The notes under the pieces are model-generated. The model did not search any database. It was not told the origin of the DNA and was given only the letters and a program-made list of their open reading frames with translations. A program made the position numbers and the translations under genes. From Halorubrum saccharovorum DSM 1137 (GTDB lineage: Archaea > Halobacteriota > Halobacteria > Halobacteriales > Haloferacaceae), in the NCBI RefSeq assembly GCF_000337915.1, contig NZ_AOJE01000012.1, forward strand, positions 1 through 64,000: 64,000 bases of DNA, given 5' to 3'. Positions 34,859-42,035 of this stretch are shown piece after piece; position 1 is the first letter of the stretch, and the number at the start of each line of letters is the position of its first letter.

Positions 34859-35071
34859 TCACGGCGCCGGTCCGGCGTCGCGGTGGAGGTAGAGGTACGC
34901 GAGCACCGGGAGGATCGTGAACACGAGCGTCGAGAGGGCCCAGAGTGCCGCGTAGCGGCTTCCGCGCGCCTTCGCGTCGCGGTAGATCCACAGCGCGGCG
35001 GCGACGACGACGCCGTAGATCACGAGCGTGAGCGGGAGCGACCACGGGAGCGCGACGCCGAAGGCGCTCAT
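34859..35071 (-). CDS. Small two-helix membrane protein
   Basis: A 70-residue protein with two transmembrane helices (LPLTLVIYGVVVAAALWIYR and LWALSTLVFTILPVLAYLYL) joined by a basic loop (RDAKARGSRYA). It resembles the short PLDc_N-like membrane proteins common in haloarchaea. Its ATG overlaps the stop of the GNAT gene (ATGA), so it once was translated after that gene from the gatD transcript. The inserted element now separates it from that promoter. Confidence 0.75.
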   Translation of the reverse strand: MSAFGVALPWSLPLTLVIYGVVVAAALWIYRDAKARGSRYAALWALSTLVFTILPVLAYLYLHRDAGPAP

Positions 35072-35660
35072 CGGTCCCCGCCCGTGAGGTCCGCGCTCAT
35101 CACGAAGTCGGGTTCGGCCGCGACCGGGACCCGGTTCGCTCCGGTGTCGCTCACGTGCTCGACCGTCTCGGGGATCAACACCCGGGCGTCGTCGGCGTCG
35201 GCCGCGGCGGCGTCCGCGGCGATCGCGTCGTACAGCGCGCCGGCGGCGTCGACGTCGCGCCACGCGGCGACGCCGTAGGTCGCGGTCCGGGTCGGCTCGC
35301 CGTCTCCCTCGCGCTCCGTCACGCGCGTCCGGACCGCGAACCCGCCGAGCGCGCTTTCGCCGGTGACCGCGAGCAGTCGGTCCTCGGCGGCCGCGGTCGC
35401 GAGTCGCTCGCGGGTGAGCGCCGAGCACGCCCACGACTCGTCGGGGTCGAGCGCGAGCCCGCGCAGGTGGTCGCGGGCGTCGCTGTCGCTCCAGAACGCC
35501 CACGCGGCGTTCGGGTCCGGGTCGGCGAGAGAGGGGTCGGCCGGCTCGGCGTCCGTTTCGGTCGGCTCCGGCTCCGCGAACCGGAACTCCGTCGCGGGCT
35601 CGAAGCCGACCGCGCGCGACTGCCCGAGCCCCATGACGTTCCACGAGAACACCATGTTCC
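35068..35660 (-). pseudogene. GNAT N-acetyltransferase, 3' (C-terminal) half, cut off by element
   Basis: This GC-rich fragment encodes NMVFSWNVMGLGQSRAVGFEP and about 175 further residues to a stop that overlaps the next gene. It has no start of its own inside host sequence. Joined to the fragment ending at 40222-40235, the reading becomes CRNMVFSWN in frame, which is the expected uninterrupted GNAT sequence. The open frame continues into the element to a codon at 35832, so a chimeric product starting in the element is possible. The truncated half lacks the acetyl-CoA motif. Confidence 0.9.
35647..35660. repeat. Left attachment site (att core copy 1)
   Basis: GAACACCATGTTCC, matching the copy at 40222-40235 at 12 of 14 positions with an identical 8-base block ACCATGTT. 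Host sequence lies to the left and element sequence to the right. On the coding strand the core spells the codons for Asn-Met-Val-Phe of the interrupted GNAT. Confidence 0.88.
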
Positions 35661-35721
35661 AGATATACTCCAAATTATTCACAGCAAAACAACTAAGGCG
35701 GTGGCTCATTGACATGGTAGT

Positions 35722-36342
35722 ATGGGAGAACCAATACCCACTGTCGACCGTGGTGACGGAGGTAAACCAACTATCGCACTGCGAGCCAACACACCACGAC
35801 AAAAGGCTGAATGGGAACGAGCCGCCGAACAATCTGGGGAATACGACAGTGTTTCACACCTTATCAAACTCGCAGTAAGTCGGGAGCTAGCGGGAATGTA
35901 TACTAGTGACATGGGTAATGGCAGTGGTATTAGTGACCACCAATTGAATGAGGTATTAGATACACTTGAATCTCTTGAGGGGGAGGTAGGAGGGCTTAGT
36001 GAGGATATCGATGAAGCGACAACGGCCATGTATGCTAGTGAAACAACCCTCTCCGATGAGACAATCACCACTGTCTATGCCGACCTTCCAGTAGGTCCTA
36101 CACAAGCAACAACGGCACAAGCTGTCTCTGCACGGACGGATATAGACGTAGATACTGCTAGTGTTGCGCTCGGCCAACTAGCAGAAAGTCACCCCGCCGT
36201 AAAGAGACTGCCATTCAAAGACCTAGGGGAAGCGGGAGACGACGGCACTGTTACCGCCACATGGAACGGGAGGGAGATACCCATTGAAGGTGCGAGAAAG
36301 GCTGTCAAACGTCGCAACCCCCTCTACTTCAAGGAGGAATAA
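35722..36342 (+). CDS. Integrase-operon partner protein, RHH-like N-terminus
   Basis: A 206-residue protein read two bases before the integrase start. The N-terminus (KPTIALRANTPRQKAEWERA, then SGEYDSVSHLIKLAVSREL) resembles ribbon-helix-helix DNA-binding proteins of haloarchaeal plasmids and viruses. A coiled-coil-like middle (LNEVLDTLESLEGEVGGLSE) and a C-terminal winged-helix-like part (ATTAQAVSARTDIDVDTASV) follow. It probably regulates or assists recombination, as accessory genes next to SNJ2-type integrases do (inference). Codon use is AT-richer than the host's. Confidence 0.75.
   Translation: MGEPIPTVDRGDGGKPTIALRANTPRQKAEWERAAEQSGEYDSVSHLIKLAVSRELAGMYTSDMGNGSGISDHQLNEVLDTLESLEGEVGGLSEDIDEATTAMYASETTLSDETITTVYADLPVGPTQATTAQAVSARTDIDVDTASVALGQLAESHPAVKRLPFKDLGEAGDDGTVTATWNGREIPIEGARKAVKRRNPLYFKEE
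36331..36338 (+). promoter_or_regulatory. Strong Shine-Dalgarno site for the integrase
   Basis: AAGGAGGA lies seven bases before the ATG at 36345, within the last codons of the upstream gene. A canonical ribosome-binding site is notable here because most host genes look leaderless; it supports translation from an internal position of a shared mRNA. Confidence 0.75.
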
Positions 36343-36344
36343 GC

Positions 36345-37370
36345 ATGTCTCTAGATTACTGCAAACACGCAAAAGACGTGGAGAAAGTAATAGACAAAGT
36401 TCATTCACGGAAGACTGATTCCACTGCAAATCGATATGCTGGAAACATTCGAGTCTTTGCCAAGTGGTGCGACACTGACGACGCACCTATCAACAACCCC
36501 TTTGCCGCGACAGTGGTTGACATAGAAGATTTCCTATCGCACCTAGCAGACGACTTAGATTATGCGTATAAGACAGTGAACGTGTACATTTCCGCCCTCG
36601 CAGTGTTCTATGATGAGGCAGAAAAGCTTGCAGACGGTGGGAGAGGTATTCCAGACCCACGGAGAGAATCAAACAGCGACCCTCTCAATTGGGAAAACCC
36701 CGCTAGCAAAGCCACGATCCCCGACATGGAAAATGACGGAACAAAGCGGGCTAAATCTCTTGAGGGGAAAGATTATGAAGATAAGTTAACGACCGATGAG
36801 GTAGAGAAACTTGTAAAAAATGCTACCTCTCCCGTGACTAGAAACGCCGCGATTATTGAGGTTATGTATCACGGTATGCTACGTCGAAAAGAAGCGGCTT
36901 ACCTGAAAGTCAGCGACATAAACCGTGACGACAGAATAATCACAATTCGGTCTGAGGTGGCTAAGAACGGGAATAAACGCCGCGTTCCATACACAAGGGA
37001 CTTAGATAATTATCTCAGACCGTGGCTTGAGGTAGACAGAGACGCTTACGCATTAGCCCCCGACTCAGAGTATCTTTTCTTAAGTAACGAACGGGAACAT
37101 TTATCACCGTTCCATATTGGTCGAATAATCCACAACGCCGCCGAGTCTGCCAATTTGCAAGAAGTACTGTTTACGAACGCCGTGGAGCAAGAGATTCACC
37201 GCGTTACTGGCCATTCACTACGGCGGTCGGGAGCTACAAGGCGGTGGGAAGCGGGAACCGATATCTACACATTAAAACAGTGGTTAGGGCATAGTTCCGT
37301 GGATACCACAAAAGGTTACATCAACGCTGATAGTGACGAATTAATCGATAAGAATCGTAAGAATTGGTAG
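36345..37370 (+). CDS. Tyrosine recombinase (integrase)
   Basis: A 341-residue site-specific recombinase that would integrate and excise the element. The N-terminal SAM-like core-binding domain (about 1-105; NRYAGNIRVFAKWC, YAYKTVNVYISALAVFYDEA) precedes the catalytic domain. Catalytic residues are Arg in YHGMLRRKEA, Lys in VAKNGNKRRVPY, His and Arg in HSLRRSG, His in LGHSS and the nucleophile Tyr in TKGYIN. All are present, so the enzyme looks active. It sits about 0.7 kb from the left att site. Two 35-base repeats follow directly. Confidence 0.93.
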   Translation: MSLDYCKHAKDVEKVIDKVHSRKTDSTANRYAGNIRVFAKWCDTDDAPINNPFAATVVDIEDFLSHLADDLDYAYKTVNVYISALAVFYDEAEKLADGGRGIPDPRRESNSDPLNWENPASKATIPDMENDGTKRAKSLEGKDYEDKLTTDEVEKLVKNATSPVTRNAAIIEVMYHGMLRRKEAAYLKVSDINRDDRIITIRSEVAKNGNKRRVPYTRDLDNYLRPWLEVDRDAYALAPDSEYLFLSNEREHLSPFHIGRIIHNAAESANLQEVLFTNAVEQEIHRVTGHSLRRSGATRRWEAGTDIYTLKQWLGHSSVDTTKGYINADSDELIDKNRKNW

Positions 37371-37373
37371 ATT

Positions 37374-37408
37374 CTCTGAGAGCCGCACAGTCGGCTTAGA
37401 ATCGATTT
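37374..37408 (+). repeat. 35-base direct repeat, copy A
   Basis: Begins four bases after the integrase stop and matches copy B at 33 of 35 positions. Its core includes GAGAGCCGCACAGTCG. The copies are 183 bases apart start to start. They may be arm-type sites for the recombinase, regulator sites or transcription end elements. Confidence 0.93.
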
Positions 37409-37556
37409 TTACCACAACACGACCAAAACCCCTTACAGACTCAAGAAATCTACTGACGAGCCGCTGAGAAGATTACAGGCGGTAATAATCTCGGAAGTCA
37501 CGACTCAGATAAGAACGGCAAGTCTGATAGCCACCGAACAAGTCGCAACCAGAATG

Positions 37557-37591
37557 CTCTGAGAGCCGCACAGTCGCCTTAGAATCTATTT
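37557..37591 (+). repeat. 35-base direct repeat, copy B
   Basis: Second copy, with two substitutions relative to copy A (37374-37408). Both copies precede an AT-rich tract. No third copy was found by eye in the element. Confidence 0.93.
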
Positions 37592-38026
37592 GATTTCCTT
37601 CCAAGTGGGTTTCCATCATCTTCGCTCAAAGATCGATTGTGAGCCGATTGTGACGGTCTGAGCGTATCCACGTTTATCGGCGGCTCCTTACGCGTGCGTA
37701 ATTTATGCTGTATATTAACGTAAGTAATAACAGCAGGTAAGTGGAAATGCGGTCTTCAACACAGCCTTCCTTCAAGCCATAGTAAACTATGGCTTTCATC
37801 CAGTCTGTGTTTACATCCCTTATTTCTAGGCTACTCGGCCTAAGTCGAGGGCAAAGACCGTGAGGGGAGAATATAACCATGAGTAATTCACGTAGGTTGT
37901 GTTTCCCTATCGGTAGCTACCTACGTACCGCAGTGTCGGGGCTATGTGGATGAGATCTCCTAGCCGTCACCATCCACGTATCAACCAACCGACACGTTTA
38001 AGTTTGTGGGGTTCCTAATAATAATT
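37592..38026 (+). other. Non-coding stretch with consecutive stem-loops
   Basis: No gene is supported here. It contains three strong inverted-repeat structures. The first has outer arms 37758-37764 / 37805-37811 around a 9-base hairpin 37774-37782 / 37787-37795 with loop TAAA. The second has arms ACGTAGGT 37890-37897 and ACCTACGT 37919-37926. The third has outer arms GTGTCGG 37933-37939 and CCGACAC 37989-37995 around inner arms 37943-37950 / 37973-37980 with one G-T pair. Such a run suits a structured RNA or a replication origin. Confidence 0.65.
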
Positions 38027-38206
38027 GTGACCCAATTCGACATTCCCGACGTAGAACGAAAAAACCCGTGGCACTGTCCAGTCGATTTCTGTGAAAAGAA
38101 CTATGAATCGGCTCGGTCGTTGTCGTTTCACATCAATAGTCGGGGAAGTAAAGGGTGTGAGGCTCATACAGCCTTCAAGCCCGCCAATATTAACGGTCGT
38201 TCGTAG
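38027..38206 (+). CDS. Small C2H2-like zinc-finger protein
   Basis: A 59-residue reading from GTG 38027. WHCPVDFCEKNYESARSLSF followed by His, and a later CEAH, gives a Cys-x4-Cys, x12, His, x11, His arrangement close to a C2H2 zinc finger. Such single-finger proteins are common on haloarchaeal viruses and plasmids and probably bind DNA. It follows the third stem-loop by 31 bases. The GTG start gives MTQFDIPDVERKNPW; a GTG at 38006 would add seven hydrophobic residues. Confidence 0.62.
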   Translation: MTQFDIPDVERKNPWHCPVDFCEKNYESARSLSFHINSRGSKGCEAHTAFKPANINGRS

Positions 38207-38611
38207 TTCGTACAATACTGTCGGGTTTTGTCGACCGTTCTCAACCCCTCCTAATTGTAATTGTGGCGTTTTTAGGCCCTAATAATATTTCTGGAACTTG
38301 GCGGTTGTGTATCGCGTGCGCACAAGCGACGGCTATACCAAGTTATTAATATGCCTCGGGAGATTATTAATAATTTCGCACTTGCTAGTAACACCATTGA
38401 CTGAAATCGATATGGACGTATTGACCGACTAGACCGACTGAAATTTACTACAACTTCTACTTACATGAGGGGTCAGTGAACCTCGAAGGCGTACAGTCAG
38501 GTACTTCAAAAAGCGGGTTTTGTCGTCTGTCTGTATCTGAAACGGCGCTCTCATCTCTTAATGTACGCCTCTAAGGGTCACTGTCTTTTCTCTCACTTTA
38601 TACTCATAACA
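38207..38611. other. Non-coding gap with an AT-rich inverted repeat
   Basis: About 400 bases without a supportable gene. It holds a perfect 9-base inverted repeat, TTATTAATA (38343-38351) and TATTAATAA (38365-38373), separated by 13 bases. This looks like an operator or an easily melted origin element. The right-hand part (38560-38611) should carry the promoter and leader of the four-gene cluster. Confidence 0.6.
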
Positions 38612-38785
38612 ATGGTTCGTGACAATCGGGTTAGGCTTTCAGACCAAGAAAAGAATATTGTTGATATGACCAAGGAATCGTTATTCGATGAGGAAGTTCC
38701 GAGAGGCGTCGTCATTGAACGGGCTTGTCGAAATCTCATGGCAGACGACAGTGGCGGCTCGGATAACGGGGGTGTAGTTCTCTAA
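38612..38785 (+). CDS. Small element protein, RHH-like (gene 1 of four-gene cluster)
   Basis: A 57-residue protein. RVRLSDQEKNIVDMTKESLF followed by EVPRGVVIERACRNLM resembles the short ribbon-helix-helix-like proteins found on haloarchaeal viruses and plasmids. A hydrophilic tail follows. Its TAA overlaps the next ATG (TAATG). It may be the cluster's own regulator. No closer assignment is possible. Confidence 0.65.
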   Translation: MVRDNRVRLSDQEKNIVDMTKESLFDEEVPRGVVIERACRNLMADDSGGSDNGGVVL

Positions 38786-38973
38786 TGACGGATATATCCC
38801 CTTCACGTCGGACAACTACGGTGCCAATCGACTCAGAACAGTACGCCCGTCTAGCGAATCTGGGTATTGAGATAGGTCACTACGATATTAAACCCCACTG
38901 TAGACGAGATAACGCCGAATTGGTGCTTACGACACTTATCGATGTGTTTGAAGCGGAGCATATCGATGACTGA
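38785..38973 (+). CDS. Unknown small element protein (gene 2 of cluster)
   Basis: A 62-residue protein starting on the last base of the previous stop. RRTTTVPIDSEQYARLANLG has a beta strand plus helix start like RHH-type proteins, and AELVLTTLIDVFEAEHIDD is a helix. It contains a His/Cys group (HYDIKPHCRRD) that might bind metal. It overlaps gene 3 by eight bases. Function unknown. Confidence 0.6.
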   Translation: MTDISPSRRTTTVPIDSEQYARLANLGIEIGHYDIKPHCRRDNAELVLTTLIDVFEAEHIDD

Positions 38974-39238
38974 TTTAACGATTGTAGAGCGACGGATAGA
39001 CGTTCTAGACAAAGTAGAGACGGTTAAAAGCGGGCGGAACGAATATGATGGGGAGTATTTCACTGCCGTCTACCCTTCCAGTGAGTCACCACAGACCTAC
39101 GTAGTTGCTCAGTTTTCTTATGAATCAAACAACGACACTGCCGACATTCAGATTTCCGACAATAGCATCCTACTTAACATTGAGAACGGGAACGTCCTTG
39201 CCCTTGTTCCAAGTGAGGCATACGGAGGTGACACATGA
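38966..39238 (+). CDS. Unknown element protein (gene 3 of cluster)
   Basis: A 90-residue acidic, beta-rich protein with no recognised family (VERRIDVLDKVETVKSGRNE, then TYVVAQFSYESNNDTADIQI, then NSILLNIENGNVLALVPSEA). There is no signal peptide or membrane segment. It starts within gene 2 (eight-base overlap) and ends in gene 4 (ATGA), so the four proteins are probably made in fixed proportion. Confidence 0.6.
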   Translation: MTDLTIVERRIDVLDKVETVKSGRNEYDGEYFTAVYPSSESPQTYVVAQFSYESNNDTADIQISDNSILLNIENGNVLALVPSEAYGGDT

Positions 39239-39921
39239 ATATCAGTAAAGATGTAGTGGCGCAGTGCCGTGACCGTGGGGGTGACCGCCTCGAAGACCGT
39301 GACGACAGAATCGGGAATACCCTCGTGGAGGATACCCTCGGTTATCAGGAGGGTAGCTGTCTAGTCGGAGAATCGTATTCGCAGTATCCTGATAGGGAAG
39401 ACCTTGCTAATCCGCAACATGGGTCGTTCCTTCGTGAGCTACTGAGTCACGAATTAGTAGGGTCGTGGTCAGATGCTGTCAAAGAACTTACAGGTGCCCG
39501 AACGGAGGGTATGCTTCGAAAGTGGATTGATAGTCTAGAGCGTGCTAGTGAGTTACATGGGCTTGAATCGCAGGAATTGTTTGCTAACGCCCGTGAACCG
39601 CCCGAGACTCGCAAAGTAATTAGCGAGATTCTGGGCTATAAAATCCCCGACAGCATAGTAGAGACTAATAACGTTCTGCTACTGTCGGCTCTTTATGTCG
39701 AAGGTCTGAGTATTAGCGAGATTAGCGACGTGTTGGAAACGGACGAAACTAGCGTCTCTGATACGCTCAAGTCCGTGGGGTTGCTGGCGGGGGCGACAAC
39801 GGACGAATCCGAGCAATCCTTCCGCCGTCAGTATGGTGAAATCAACCGCCCTAGTGGTGGAGCAAGTGTAAATAAACAGGCTGTATCTGAGTCAGATACG
39901 GTCAAGGTCGTAAGTCGTTAG
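39235..39921 (+). CDS. Element protein with C-terminal helix-turn-helix (gene 4 of cluster)
   Basis: The largest cluster product at 228 residues. A charged N-terminus leads into helices (FLRELLSHELVGSWSDAVKE, MLRKWIDSLERASELHG). A helix-turn-helix-like segment follows, LLLSALYVEGLSISEISDVL plus SVSDTLKSVGLL. It likely binds DNA. As the biggest protein besides the integrase it is the best candidate for a replication initiator or master regulator, but no Rep motif is visible. A T6 run follows the stop. Confidence 0.65.
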   Translation: MNISKDVVAQCRDRGGDRLEDRDDRIGNTLVEDTLGYQEGSCLVGESYSQYPDREDLANPQHGSFLRELLSHELVGSWSDAVKELTGARTEGMLRKWIDSLERASELHGLESQELFANAREPPETRKVISEILGYKIPDSIVETNNVLLLSALYVEGLSISEISDVLETDETSVSDTLKSVGLLAGATTDESEQSFRRQYGEINRPSGGASVNKQAVSESDTVKVVSR

Positions 39922-39926
39922 CGGTC

Positions 39927-39932
39927 TTTTTT
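39927..39932 (+). terminator. T6 run after the four-gene cluster
   Basis: Six consecutive T residues begin six bases after the TAG stop, matching archaeal oligo-T termination. Further T-rich sequence follows within ten bases. Confidence 0.55.
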
Positions 39933-39958
39933 CACTTTCGTTATAATACTCAATAGCC

Positions 39959-40006
39959 GTAGCTGTAGTTTGCGGGAAAGTGCGCGGACGACACTGCGGT
40001 AGCTGT
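39959..40006. repeat. GTAGCTGT repeated 40 bases apart near the right end
   Basis: GTAGCTGT occurs at 39959-39966 and 39999-40006, with one mismatch if extended leftward. Forty bases is close to four helical turns, so the copies would face the same side of the DNA, as arm sites of recombinases often do. They lie about 0.2 kb inside the right att site. Confidence 0.4.
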
Positions 40007-40044
40007 CGCCGAGCCGCCAAAGAAATAGACTCATTCTGAGATTT

Positions 40045-40713
40045 TTAAAATAAATAGAACGGTGGTGTTCGGGCGGTCGCTATATGTGGGTGGATATATC
40101 TAGACGTGTTGCGGTCTGCTACCGACCCCATATAACCTACGTAACTGGCTACCATCGTCAGTATTGTCGACGGCGGGAGGGTAGGGTGTGTTTTGCTGTG
40201 TTTACAACACCACCCCCTCTTGAATACCATGTTTCGACACACCGCCGCGCCGCGGTCGCGGGCCCAGTCGAGCGCGGCCTCCGAGAGCGCGGTGCCGACC
40301 CCGGCCCCGCGGGCCGCCGGGTCGACGCGGATCCCCTGCCCCCACGCCTCCCACTCGGTGAGCAGGACGCCTTGGATGCAGCCGACGACCGCCTCCGGCT
40401 CGCCCGGGGCGGCCGCGCCCGCGCCGTCGCCCTCGACGAGAGTGTCGCCCGGGTCGCGGTCGTCGCGTCCCGCGACCGCGTCGCTCTCGGCGACCGCCGC
40501 TGGCGAGAGCGTCGCGACGAAGGTGCCGCTGTCGGAGTCGTCGGAGGCGGCCCACTCCGGGAACACGCGCGGGACGTAGTCGTCGTGGCGCTGGCCCCAC
40601 GTGTCGCGCGCGAACGCGGCGACCGCGTCGGCGTCGGCGGGGCGGGCCTCGCGGACGACGGGGACGGACGCCGAGTCTGAGGCCGGCGTCGACTCCCCCG
40701 CGTCCCCCGTCAT
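40045..40713 (-). pseudogene. GNAT N-acetyltransferase, 5' (N-terminal) half fused to element sequence
   Basis: The intact start at 40713 overlaps the gatD stop (ATGA). Host-coded residues include VPVVREARPADADAVAAFAR and the acetyl-CoA-binding GIRVDPAARGAGVGTALSEA, then end at CRNMVF in the att core (40222-40235). From there the frame reads about 60 foreign residues of element sequence (KRGWCCKHSKTHP onward) to a stop at 40045. The truncated protein keeps the acetyl-CoA site but loses its C-terminal part, so loss of function is likely. Confidence 0.9.
40222..40235. repeat. Right attachment site (att core copy 2)
   Basis: GAATACCATGTTTC, matching the left copy except at two positions. Element sequence lies to the left and host sequence to the right. 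Start-to-start distance between the copies is 4575 bases, the expected size of an excised circle. Confidence 0.88.
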
Positions 40714-42035
40714 CGCCAGGGCTGCGACTCCTCGGTCAGCTCGCCGGCGAGGTCGCGGCCCATCGCCTCGGCGGGGTCGGACAGGTTCGCGAGCGCCCAC
40801 ATCAGCTTCACCTTCGCGGTGCCGGGGAGCGTGTCGCCCGCCTCGACGACGCCCGCGTCGAGCAGGTCGCGGCCGGTGTCGTACACCCGGTCGCAGACGC
40901 GGCCCGCGAGACACTGGCTCGTCATCGCGACGACGGTGCCGCTCTCGACCAGCGCCTCGATCCGCGGGATGAGGTCGGTGTGGACGTGGCCGAGCCCGGT
41001 CCCCTCGATGACGACGCCGTCCTTGTCGTCGAGGTAGTCCCACGCGGCCGGGTCCATGCCGGGCGTGAACTTGACGAGTTCGACGTCGCCGTCGAGGTCC
41101 GGATCGAGGGAGACGTCGGACTCGTCGGCGTCGCCCTCCCCGTCGCCACCGCCCGATTCGCGTCCTCGCGGAAGCGGCTCGCGGACCCAGTCGATCGCGT
41201 CGTCCGCGGCGTCGCCGTCGGCGCCCGCCTCGGCTGCGGCCTCGTAGTCGATCCGACCGAGGGGCTCGGCGCCGACCGTCTCGAAGGCGTCGCGGCGGGA
41301 GGTGTGGTTCTTCCGGACGCGGGTGCCGCGGTGGAGCGCGCAGGCGTCGTCGGAGGGGCTCGCGTGCATGCAGACCAGCGTCTCGGCGTGGTCGGCCTTC
41401 GCGGCCTCGACCGCGCACACCGCGTTCATCACGTTGTCGGAGGAGGGGCGGTCGGCCGAGCGCTGGCTCCCGGTGAACACGATCGGGACCGGCGAGTCGA
41501 GCATGAAGGAGAGCGCGGAGGCGGAGTACTGCATCGTGTCGGTGCCATGCATCACGACGACGCCGTCGGCGCCGGCCTCGATCTCCTCGCGCACGGCCTC
41601 GGCGAGCTCCCGCCAGATGGCCGGCTCCATGTTCTCCGAGAGGATGTTGGCGACGACGCGCCCGCGGTAGTTCGCGCGCCCGGCCAGGTCGGGAACCGCC
41701 CGGAGCACGTCCTCGGCGTCGAACTGGGCGGTGACCGCGCCGGTCCGGTAGTCGACGGTGGAGGCGATGGTCCCGCCGGTGGAGATGAGCGAGACCGTCG
41801 GGAGGTCCTCGTCGAAGGTGATCTCGGAGGCCTCGCCGCCGCCCGCGTCGGCGCCGTCGTCAACGTCGCGGGCGCCGGATTCGAGCACTTCGACGTCGGC
41901 CTCGTCGCGGTCGATACCGACGTTGTACCCCCCGTCGAGCTTGACGACGAGGTGGTCGCGAGTCGTCGAGGGGAGCAGTACGCCCTCGTTCGTGACGTCC
42001 CCGCGGTCGACGCGGACGCGATCTCCCGGTTGCAT
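40710..42035 (-). CDS. gatD: Glu-tRNA(Gln) amidotransferase subunit D
   Basis: The 441-residue archaeal GatD is the asparaginase-like subunit that releases ammonia for the GatDE complex, which converts Glu-tRNA(Gln) to Gln-tRNA(Gln). The N-terminal Tudor-like domain (about 1-75) is followed by LISTGGTIAST with the nucleophilic Thr, VVMHGTDTMQYSASALS, FTGSQRSADRPSSD and GTGLGHV. A halophilic acidic insertion lies near residues 270-310. Its stop overlaps the GNAT start, so gatD, GNAT and the small membrane gene formed one operon before the insertion. Confidence 0.95.
   Translation of the reverse strand: MQPGDRVRVDRGDVTNEGVLLPSTTRDHLVVKLDGGYNVGIDRDEADVEVLESGARDVDDGADAGGGEASEITFDEDLPTVSLISTGGTIASTVDYRTGAVTAQFDAEDVLRAVPDLAGRANYRGRVVANILSENMEPAIWRELAEAVREEIEAGADGVVVMHGTDTMQYSASALSFMLDSPVPIVFTGSQRSADRPSSDNVMNAVCAVEAAKADHAETLVCMHASPSDDACALHRGTRVRKNHTSRRDAFETVGAEPLGRIDYEAAAEAGADGDAADDAIDWVREPLPRGRESGGGDGEGDADESDVSLDPDLDGDVELVKFTPGMDPAAWDYLDDKDGVVIEGTGLGHVHTDLIPRIEALVESGTVVAMTSQCLAGRVCDRVYDTGRDLLDAGVVEAGDTLPGTAKVKLMWALANLSDPAEAMGRDLAGELTEESQPWR

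Follow-up and report, generated by a model that had tools for sequence, protein, structure and literature searches.

A probable integrative plasmid within a GNAT acetyltransferase gene of Halorubrum saccharovorum, and a related family of haloarchaeal integrases

The split gene and its empty site

In the 64,000-nt stretch of Halorubrum saccharovorum DSM 1137 analysed here (hereafter the window, to which all coordinates refer), a GNAT acetyltransferase gene on the minus strand is divided into a 5' half (40236-40713; Acetyltransf_1, 9.5 × 10−10 in Pfam) and a 3' half (35068-35646; homologues across the joint) by an element located inside a 194-kb contig of a draft assembly, away from its ends. 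The element is bounded by two unstranded attachment cores, GAACACCATGTTCC on the left (35647-35660) and GAATACCATGTTTC on the right (40222-40235), which are spaced 4575 bp apart, are identical at 12 of 14 positions and share an uninterrupted run of 8 bp (ACCATGTT); GC content is ~0.45-0.51 within the element vs. 0.70-0.79 in the flanks. Joining the flanks in silico yields a single continuous minus-strand frame of 356 amino acids (aa), and either core copy gives the same protein. The upstream neighbour is gatD (40710-42035, minus strand; GatD_N and asparaginase domains in Pfam), and a 70-aa membrane-protein open reading frame (ORF; 34859-35071, minus strand) follows downstream, both overlapping the GNAT gene at ATGA; the names GatD and GNAT are Pfam-based. 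A preceding reading of the sequence alone (the sequence-only reading) had described a low-GC block between two repeats, a GNAT gene whose halves rejoin when the block is removed, and a location flanked by gatD and a small membrane gene, with ATGA overlaps on both sides, and all of this was borne out. One small correction concerns the repeat, which had been viewed as 14 nt: the crossover must fall within the 8 identical bp, and the outer bases of the cores differ because one set comes from the element and the other from the host.

The element encodes a 341-aa tyrosine integrase (36345-37370, plus strand; Phage_integrase PF00589, 6.3 × 10−29) with XerC/XerA-like chains as its matches in the PDB; its residues R180/R181, H290xxR293, H316 and Y325, which identify it as a tyrosine recombinase, are also present in a Halobacterium relative described below. 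Directly upstream lies a 206-aa ORF (35722-36342, plus strand) that is called RHH-like solely from the appearance of its N-terminal sequence and that has no match of weight in Pfam, NCBIfam or PHROG.

Comparison with relatives shows the gene without the element. The 5' half was found in 44 of 53 genomes of the genus, and the GNAT gene in 42 of 47 good genomes, several near-complete congeners being without a match. The sequence-only reading had proposed a search of related genomes for the uninterrupted gene, with two separate genes at the locus, or the lack of an intact homologue across the CRNMVFSWN joint, as the outcomes that would speak against a split; instead, in 29 of 29 fetched congener loci (L003-L031) the gene runs unsplit across this joint, at 72-87% identity. 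The predicted empty site TGTCGAAACATGGTGTTCTCGTGGAAC (gene strand; this assumes a crossover in the shared 8 bp) is present letter-perfect over 27 nt in two of these loci (L004 and L006). Among 37 relatives, no 14-nt window of the GNAT gene is better conserved than the one in the core region (rank 1 of 1055), where the residues NMVFSWN, seven in all, are invariant. The median pairwise ratio of nonsynonymous to synonymous substitution rates (dN/dS) is 0.37 for the window gene vs. 0.36 for the other copies of the genus, and no stops or frameshifts were found in the window halves. The halves are thus undecayed, which indicates a recent insertion or continued maintenance of the gene; precise excision would be predicted to restore the gene, and the same state of the halves equally fits a recent insertion.

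Across the order, the GNAT gene was identified in 335 of 392 genomes, and it is split by an element in only 2, the window strain and Halobacterium salinarum DSM 3754. Further candidates were rejected: paired matches in five genomes (G023, G083, G090, G165 and G369) are adjacent pieces of one open frame, and the second match in G045 is an isolated N-terminal fragment from a different contig. In three congeners the GNAT match (G003:C3:119454-119897, G005:C17:40264-40695 and G033:C8:75829-76266) contains one in-frame stop, and these may be pseudogenes or alignment effects.

The Halobacterium salinarum DSM 3754 locus (NZ_VRYN01000001.1; L089/L109) also encodes the closest relative of the window integrase (47-50% identity). 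Its element measures 4839 bp, has 13-bp cores that match exactly (GAACACCATGTTC) and splits the same post-gatD GNAT gene at the same codons, the gene being intact in other Halobacterium species. Interruption of the same gene and codons by the closest relative shows conservation of the site between haloarchaeal families. Gene order matches that of the window, with an RHH-like gene (56% identity), the integrase, small ORFs and a 237-aa protein (39-41%), and inverted arms are found in both elements, whereas the Halobacterium element has a higher GC content, an extra membrane-protein ORF and partly different cargo. A search of 171 genomes from the window's family and 26 from that of Halobacterium gave no third member of this integrase clade. 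A scan of genome and viral contigs with an alignment of the two integrases recovered the Halobacterium locus and, apart from it, a single weak viral contig, and pattern scans of these contigs with a single integrase gave no match. Strain DSM 3754 has two elements of the wider family, the first in the GNAT gene (L089, G111:C1) and the second close to the beginning of an FMN oxidoreductase gene (L106, G111:C9). Provirus-like, strain-specific breaks of 3.2-9.4 kb against strain 91-R6 are described in one report (PMC10264941), whose text, as far as it was searched, does not name this locus.

Related integrases, their targets and their attachment arms

To place the element, we compared 49 loci, namely the window and 48 fetched loci with related integrases (L089 included). 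An RHH-like ORF lies directly upstream of the integrase in the other 48 loci as well. None of the 49 integrases has a tRNA gene adjoining its attachment region, in a search able to show such genes. The insertion site was readable in 19 of the 49 loci (window counted), of which 17 are inside protein-coding genes, 2 are at the 3' end of such genes and 0 are in tRNA genes; in these 19 loci the halves rejoin in frame, and Pfam domains cross the joint where tested. We propose an RHH-Int family that targets protein-coding genes, recognised by an RHH-like ORF upstream of the integrase and a core in a protein gene that rejoins in frame; the window element has both.

Targets recur. Besides the two GNAT insertions (window and L089), we identified five in TctA transporter genes (L095, L098, L101, L107 and L175; same codons, NTANT/IFAL), three in FMN oxidoreductase genes (L091, L096 and L106; SPMC/QYSC) and two in T2SSE ATPase genes (L100 and L167). 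Single insertions affect genes for TspO (L099), a FAD oxidoreductase (L092), a histidine kinase (L103), an ABC exporter (L177) and DUF7266 (L102), and the two 3'-end sites are in the genes for EF-2 (L097) and an enoyl-CoA hydratase-type protein (L093). A locus in an ABC-2 permease gene (L104) has a good repeat, yet its joined frame is off, and it was left out of the count. In the integrase tree the GNAT pair is supported at 100/100, the FMN oxidoreductase and T2SSE target groups form clades, and the TctA targets fall in two separate clades. The five TctA-family insertions come from four haloarchaeal families, and occur at the same codons in both orientations. The window genome itself contains a second, distant family integrase (L165, G000:C19:2575-3291), which is preceded by an RHH-like ORF and lies on a 23.6-kb, largely low-GC contig.

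Attachment sites in the family share further anatomy. In the window, the left inverted arm CACAGCAAAACA (35680-35691, plus strand) lies 19 nt inside the left core, and the right arm (40189-40200, minus strand; TGTTTTGCTGTG on the plus strand) lies 21 nt inside the right core. The arms form an exact 12-nt inverted repeat, a length reached by shuffled versions of the same stretches in 0.01% of trials. The Halobacterium element has the arm ACAGTGCAAAACAA at the equivalent place, several related loci have AACAACGCAAACA, ACAGCGTAAACAC or CGCAAACAC, and symmetric inverted arms with sequences alike across family members (GCAAAACA/GCAAACA) stand beside many cores. From these sequences, we infer that the integrase or the upstream protein may bind to the arms as arm-type sites. 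The core at the GNAT gene is near-palindromic, with dyad symmetry (GAACA-TGG-TGTTC in Halobacterium), which bears on a question left open by a 2021 review, namely whether the few archaeal attachment sites in protein genes have the dyad symmetry that integrases need (PMC8371274).

Cargo genes and a related free plasmid

Every assigned gene of the element is on the strand opposite to the GNAT host gene. Downstream of the integrase, a long non-coding stretch contains two 38-nt direct repeats of 92% identity (37371-37408 and 37554-37591, plus strand) and an inverted repeat (37758-37811) with 26-nt arms that are 77% complementary; these repeats are a possible origin or RNA, and an Rfam search that included the stretch gave no match. 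There follow, all on the plus strand, a 59-aa ORF (38027-38206) with a weak C2H2 zinc-finger-like match under the Pfam cut-off, a 57-74-aa ORF (38561-38785) with homologues in the Halobacterium element and L175, a 62-aa ORF (38785-38973) with homologues in L175 (60%) and on a free Halomicrobium plasmid (32%, 4 × 10−6), a 90-98-aa ORF (38966-39238) with homologues in the Halobacterium element, L175 and L177, and a 228-aa protein (39235-39921). The 228-aa protein has weak helix-turn-helix matches and homologues in the Halobacterium element (39-41%), L175 (60%) and the same free plasmid (31-32%), and is a candidate plasmid maintenance or replication protein.

The plasmid in question is unnamed4 of Halomicrobium urmianum (NZ_CP084094.1, L194), a free circle of 4491 bp on which homologues of both the 62-aa and the 228-aa ORF occur in unchanged order, and whose cassette may constitute a minimal replicon. 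Similar to the element in size and in having a long non-coding stretch, it differs in that it is a free circle on which the integrase and RHH-like module was not found. The element thus has backbone genes in common with a free circular replicon, as expected of a small integrative plasmid, with a candidate role of these genes in replication. Comparison of the cargo with the integrases shows that they are incongruent: the 228-aa protein shares 60% identity with its L175 homologue vs. ~39% with that of the Halobacterium GNAT-type element, and the L175 integrase, which targets TctA, is only 29% identical to the window integrase. This incongruence suggests that integration modules may have been swapped between plasmid backbones, changing the target.

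Interpretation

We consider it very probable that the block is a small integrative plasmid of ~4.6 kb that belongs to a protein-gene-targeting integrase family and moves as follows. The circular form would carry an attP with the 8-bp exchange core ACCATGTT and symmetric inverted arms ~20 nt to either side, the predicted circle junction being GAATACCATGTTCC. The integrase, probably with the small upstream protein, would recombine attP into a matching site at the N-M-V-F codons of the GNAT gene downstream of gatD. Integration breaks the gene after about residue 163 and moves its 3' half, together with the gene that follows, away from gatD. Once circularised, the element would have its 228-aa operon directed at the RHH-like and integrase genes (compare SNJ2, PMC13107129). 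Targets would be mostly conserved within integrase clades, while integration modules are apparently traded between plasmid backbones.

Several observations weigh against this interpretation. The circular form and its excision are inferred, neither having been seen, and a free plasmid with an RHH-like gene was not found. Attachment sites are assigned in 19 of the 49 family loci, so that tRNA or intergenic sites are possible among the other 30. In the 228-aa protein, a recognised replication domain was not found, and its structure model is of low confidence (predicted local distance difference test score, pLDDT, of 50). Close homologues of the integrase were not found in phage or viral collections.

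The alternatives differ in what the insertion is and in whether it is reversed. That two separate genes merely look split, or that the assembly is misjoined, has next to no probability: the draft state of the assembly allows for it, and 29 intact homologues, the exact empty site in two of them, the homologous Halobacterium event and the internal position of the element in a 194-kb contig have already refuted it. A remnant of a pleolipovirus-like or tailed provirus would account for an integrase that adjoins the attachment site and for a size near that of small proviruses. However, no virus structural, spike or packaging genes were found in the element, PHROGs matches of weight are limited to the integrase, and the backbone is common with a free plasmid, so that this origin is very improbable. 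A suicidal integrase of the SSV type was ruled out, since the integrase ORF (36345-37370) is whole and the attachment site lies outside it.

Regarding reversal, the sequence-only reading held up in that an element with a tyrosine integrase interrupts a protein gene that is intact in relatives, whereas its further suggestion of a reversible switch, taken here to mean that precise excision is regulated and brings the GNAT gene back when the host requires it, seems to us distinctly unlikely. In bacteria, regulated excision has been demonstrated for gene-splitting prophages (comK type, active lysogeny), and these resemble the element in that they disrupt a protein gene at an exact point, where precise excision would mend it. 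A switch would also agree with undecayed halves whose dN/dS is like that of unsplit copies, with two joins that encode the same protein, with intact catalytic residues of the integrase and with use of the same site in two distant hosts. Against this, undecayed halves equally mean a recent insertion, none of excision, circle and regulation was observed, an element in only 2 of 392 genomes implies that the GNAT gene is not generally controlled in this way, and interruption of many unrelated genes by related elements points to target availability rather than a GNAT-specific circuit. That a selfish integrative plasmid inserted recently and in one direction only, with loss of a dispensable GNAT gene in this strain, is somewhat favoured: several near-complete congeners have no match to the gene, insertion is rare, an unchanged dN/dS is expected of a young event, and the site falls at highly conserved codons, as is typical when the integrase, and not a benefit to the host, determines the choice. 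This reading is a restricted version of the integrative-plasmid explanation and is compatible with it, the sole difference being whether excision happens in nature. A broader form, in which a widespread integrase family specialised on conserved protein genes retargets by swapping RHH-Int modules between small-plasmid backbones, and by precise insertion and excision turns host genes such as GNAT, TctA and FMN oxidoreductase genes on and off heritably, is unlikely.

Integration in archaea is usually described at tRNA genes (PMC8371274), and the contrast drawn with this habit by the sequence-only reading agrees with the literature, although attachment sites in protein genes were already known for BJ1 (HMG-CoA reductase gene), Msmi-Pro1 and NitGar-E6 (PMC8371274). 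Like the window element, these three are integrated at protein-coding attB sites, but they were reported singly, whereas here sites recur across hosts and within an integrase family. The window integrase has no match at E 10−5 to haloarchaeal virus records. Neither the use of the same site in Halobacterium nor the wider integrase family's use of protein genes had been noticed in the sequence-only reading. The integrases of SNJ2-type betapleolipoviruses (PMC8371274, PMC13107129) are similar in that they are haloarchaeal, use a short core (13-14 bp) and are co-encoded with small upstream genes, and right-end genes would join the integrase operon in the circle. SNJ2, however, uses the 3' end of a tRNA gene, whereas the window, in which no tRNA genes were found, has its attachment site in the GNAT gene and an element without virus genes. 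Within the literature searched, a family of haloarchaeal integrases whose protein-gene targets recur in different host families, whose symmetric arms are alike and whose modules are apparently exchanged appears to be new. Its recurrent sites that can be restored in frame, the near-palindromic GNAT core and the symmetric arms provide attachment-site pairs ready for testing, one of them from the laboratory species Halobacterium salinarum, and the family illustrates how mobile elements can repeatedly inactivate the same conserved host genes.

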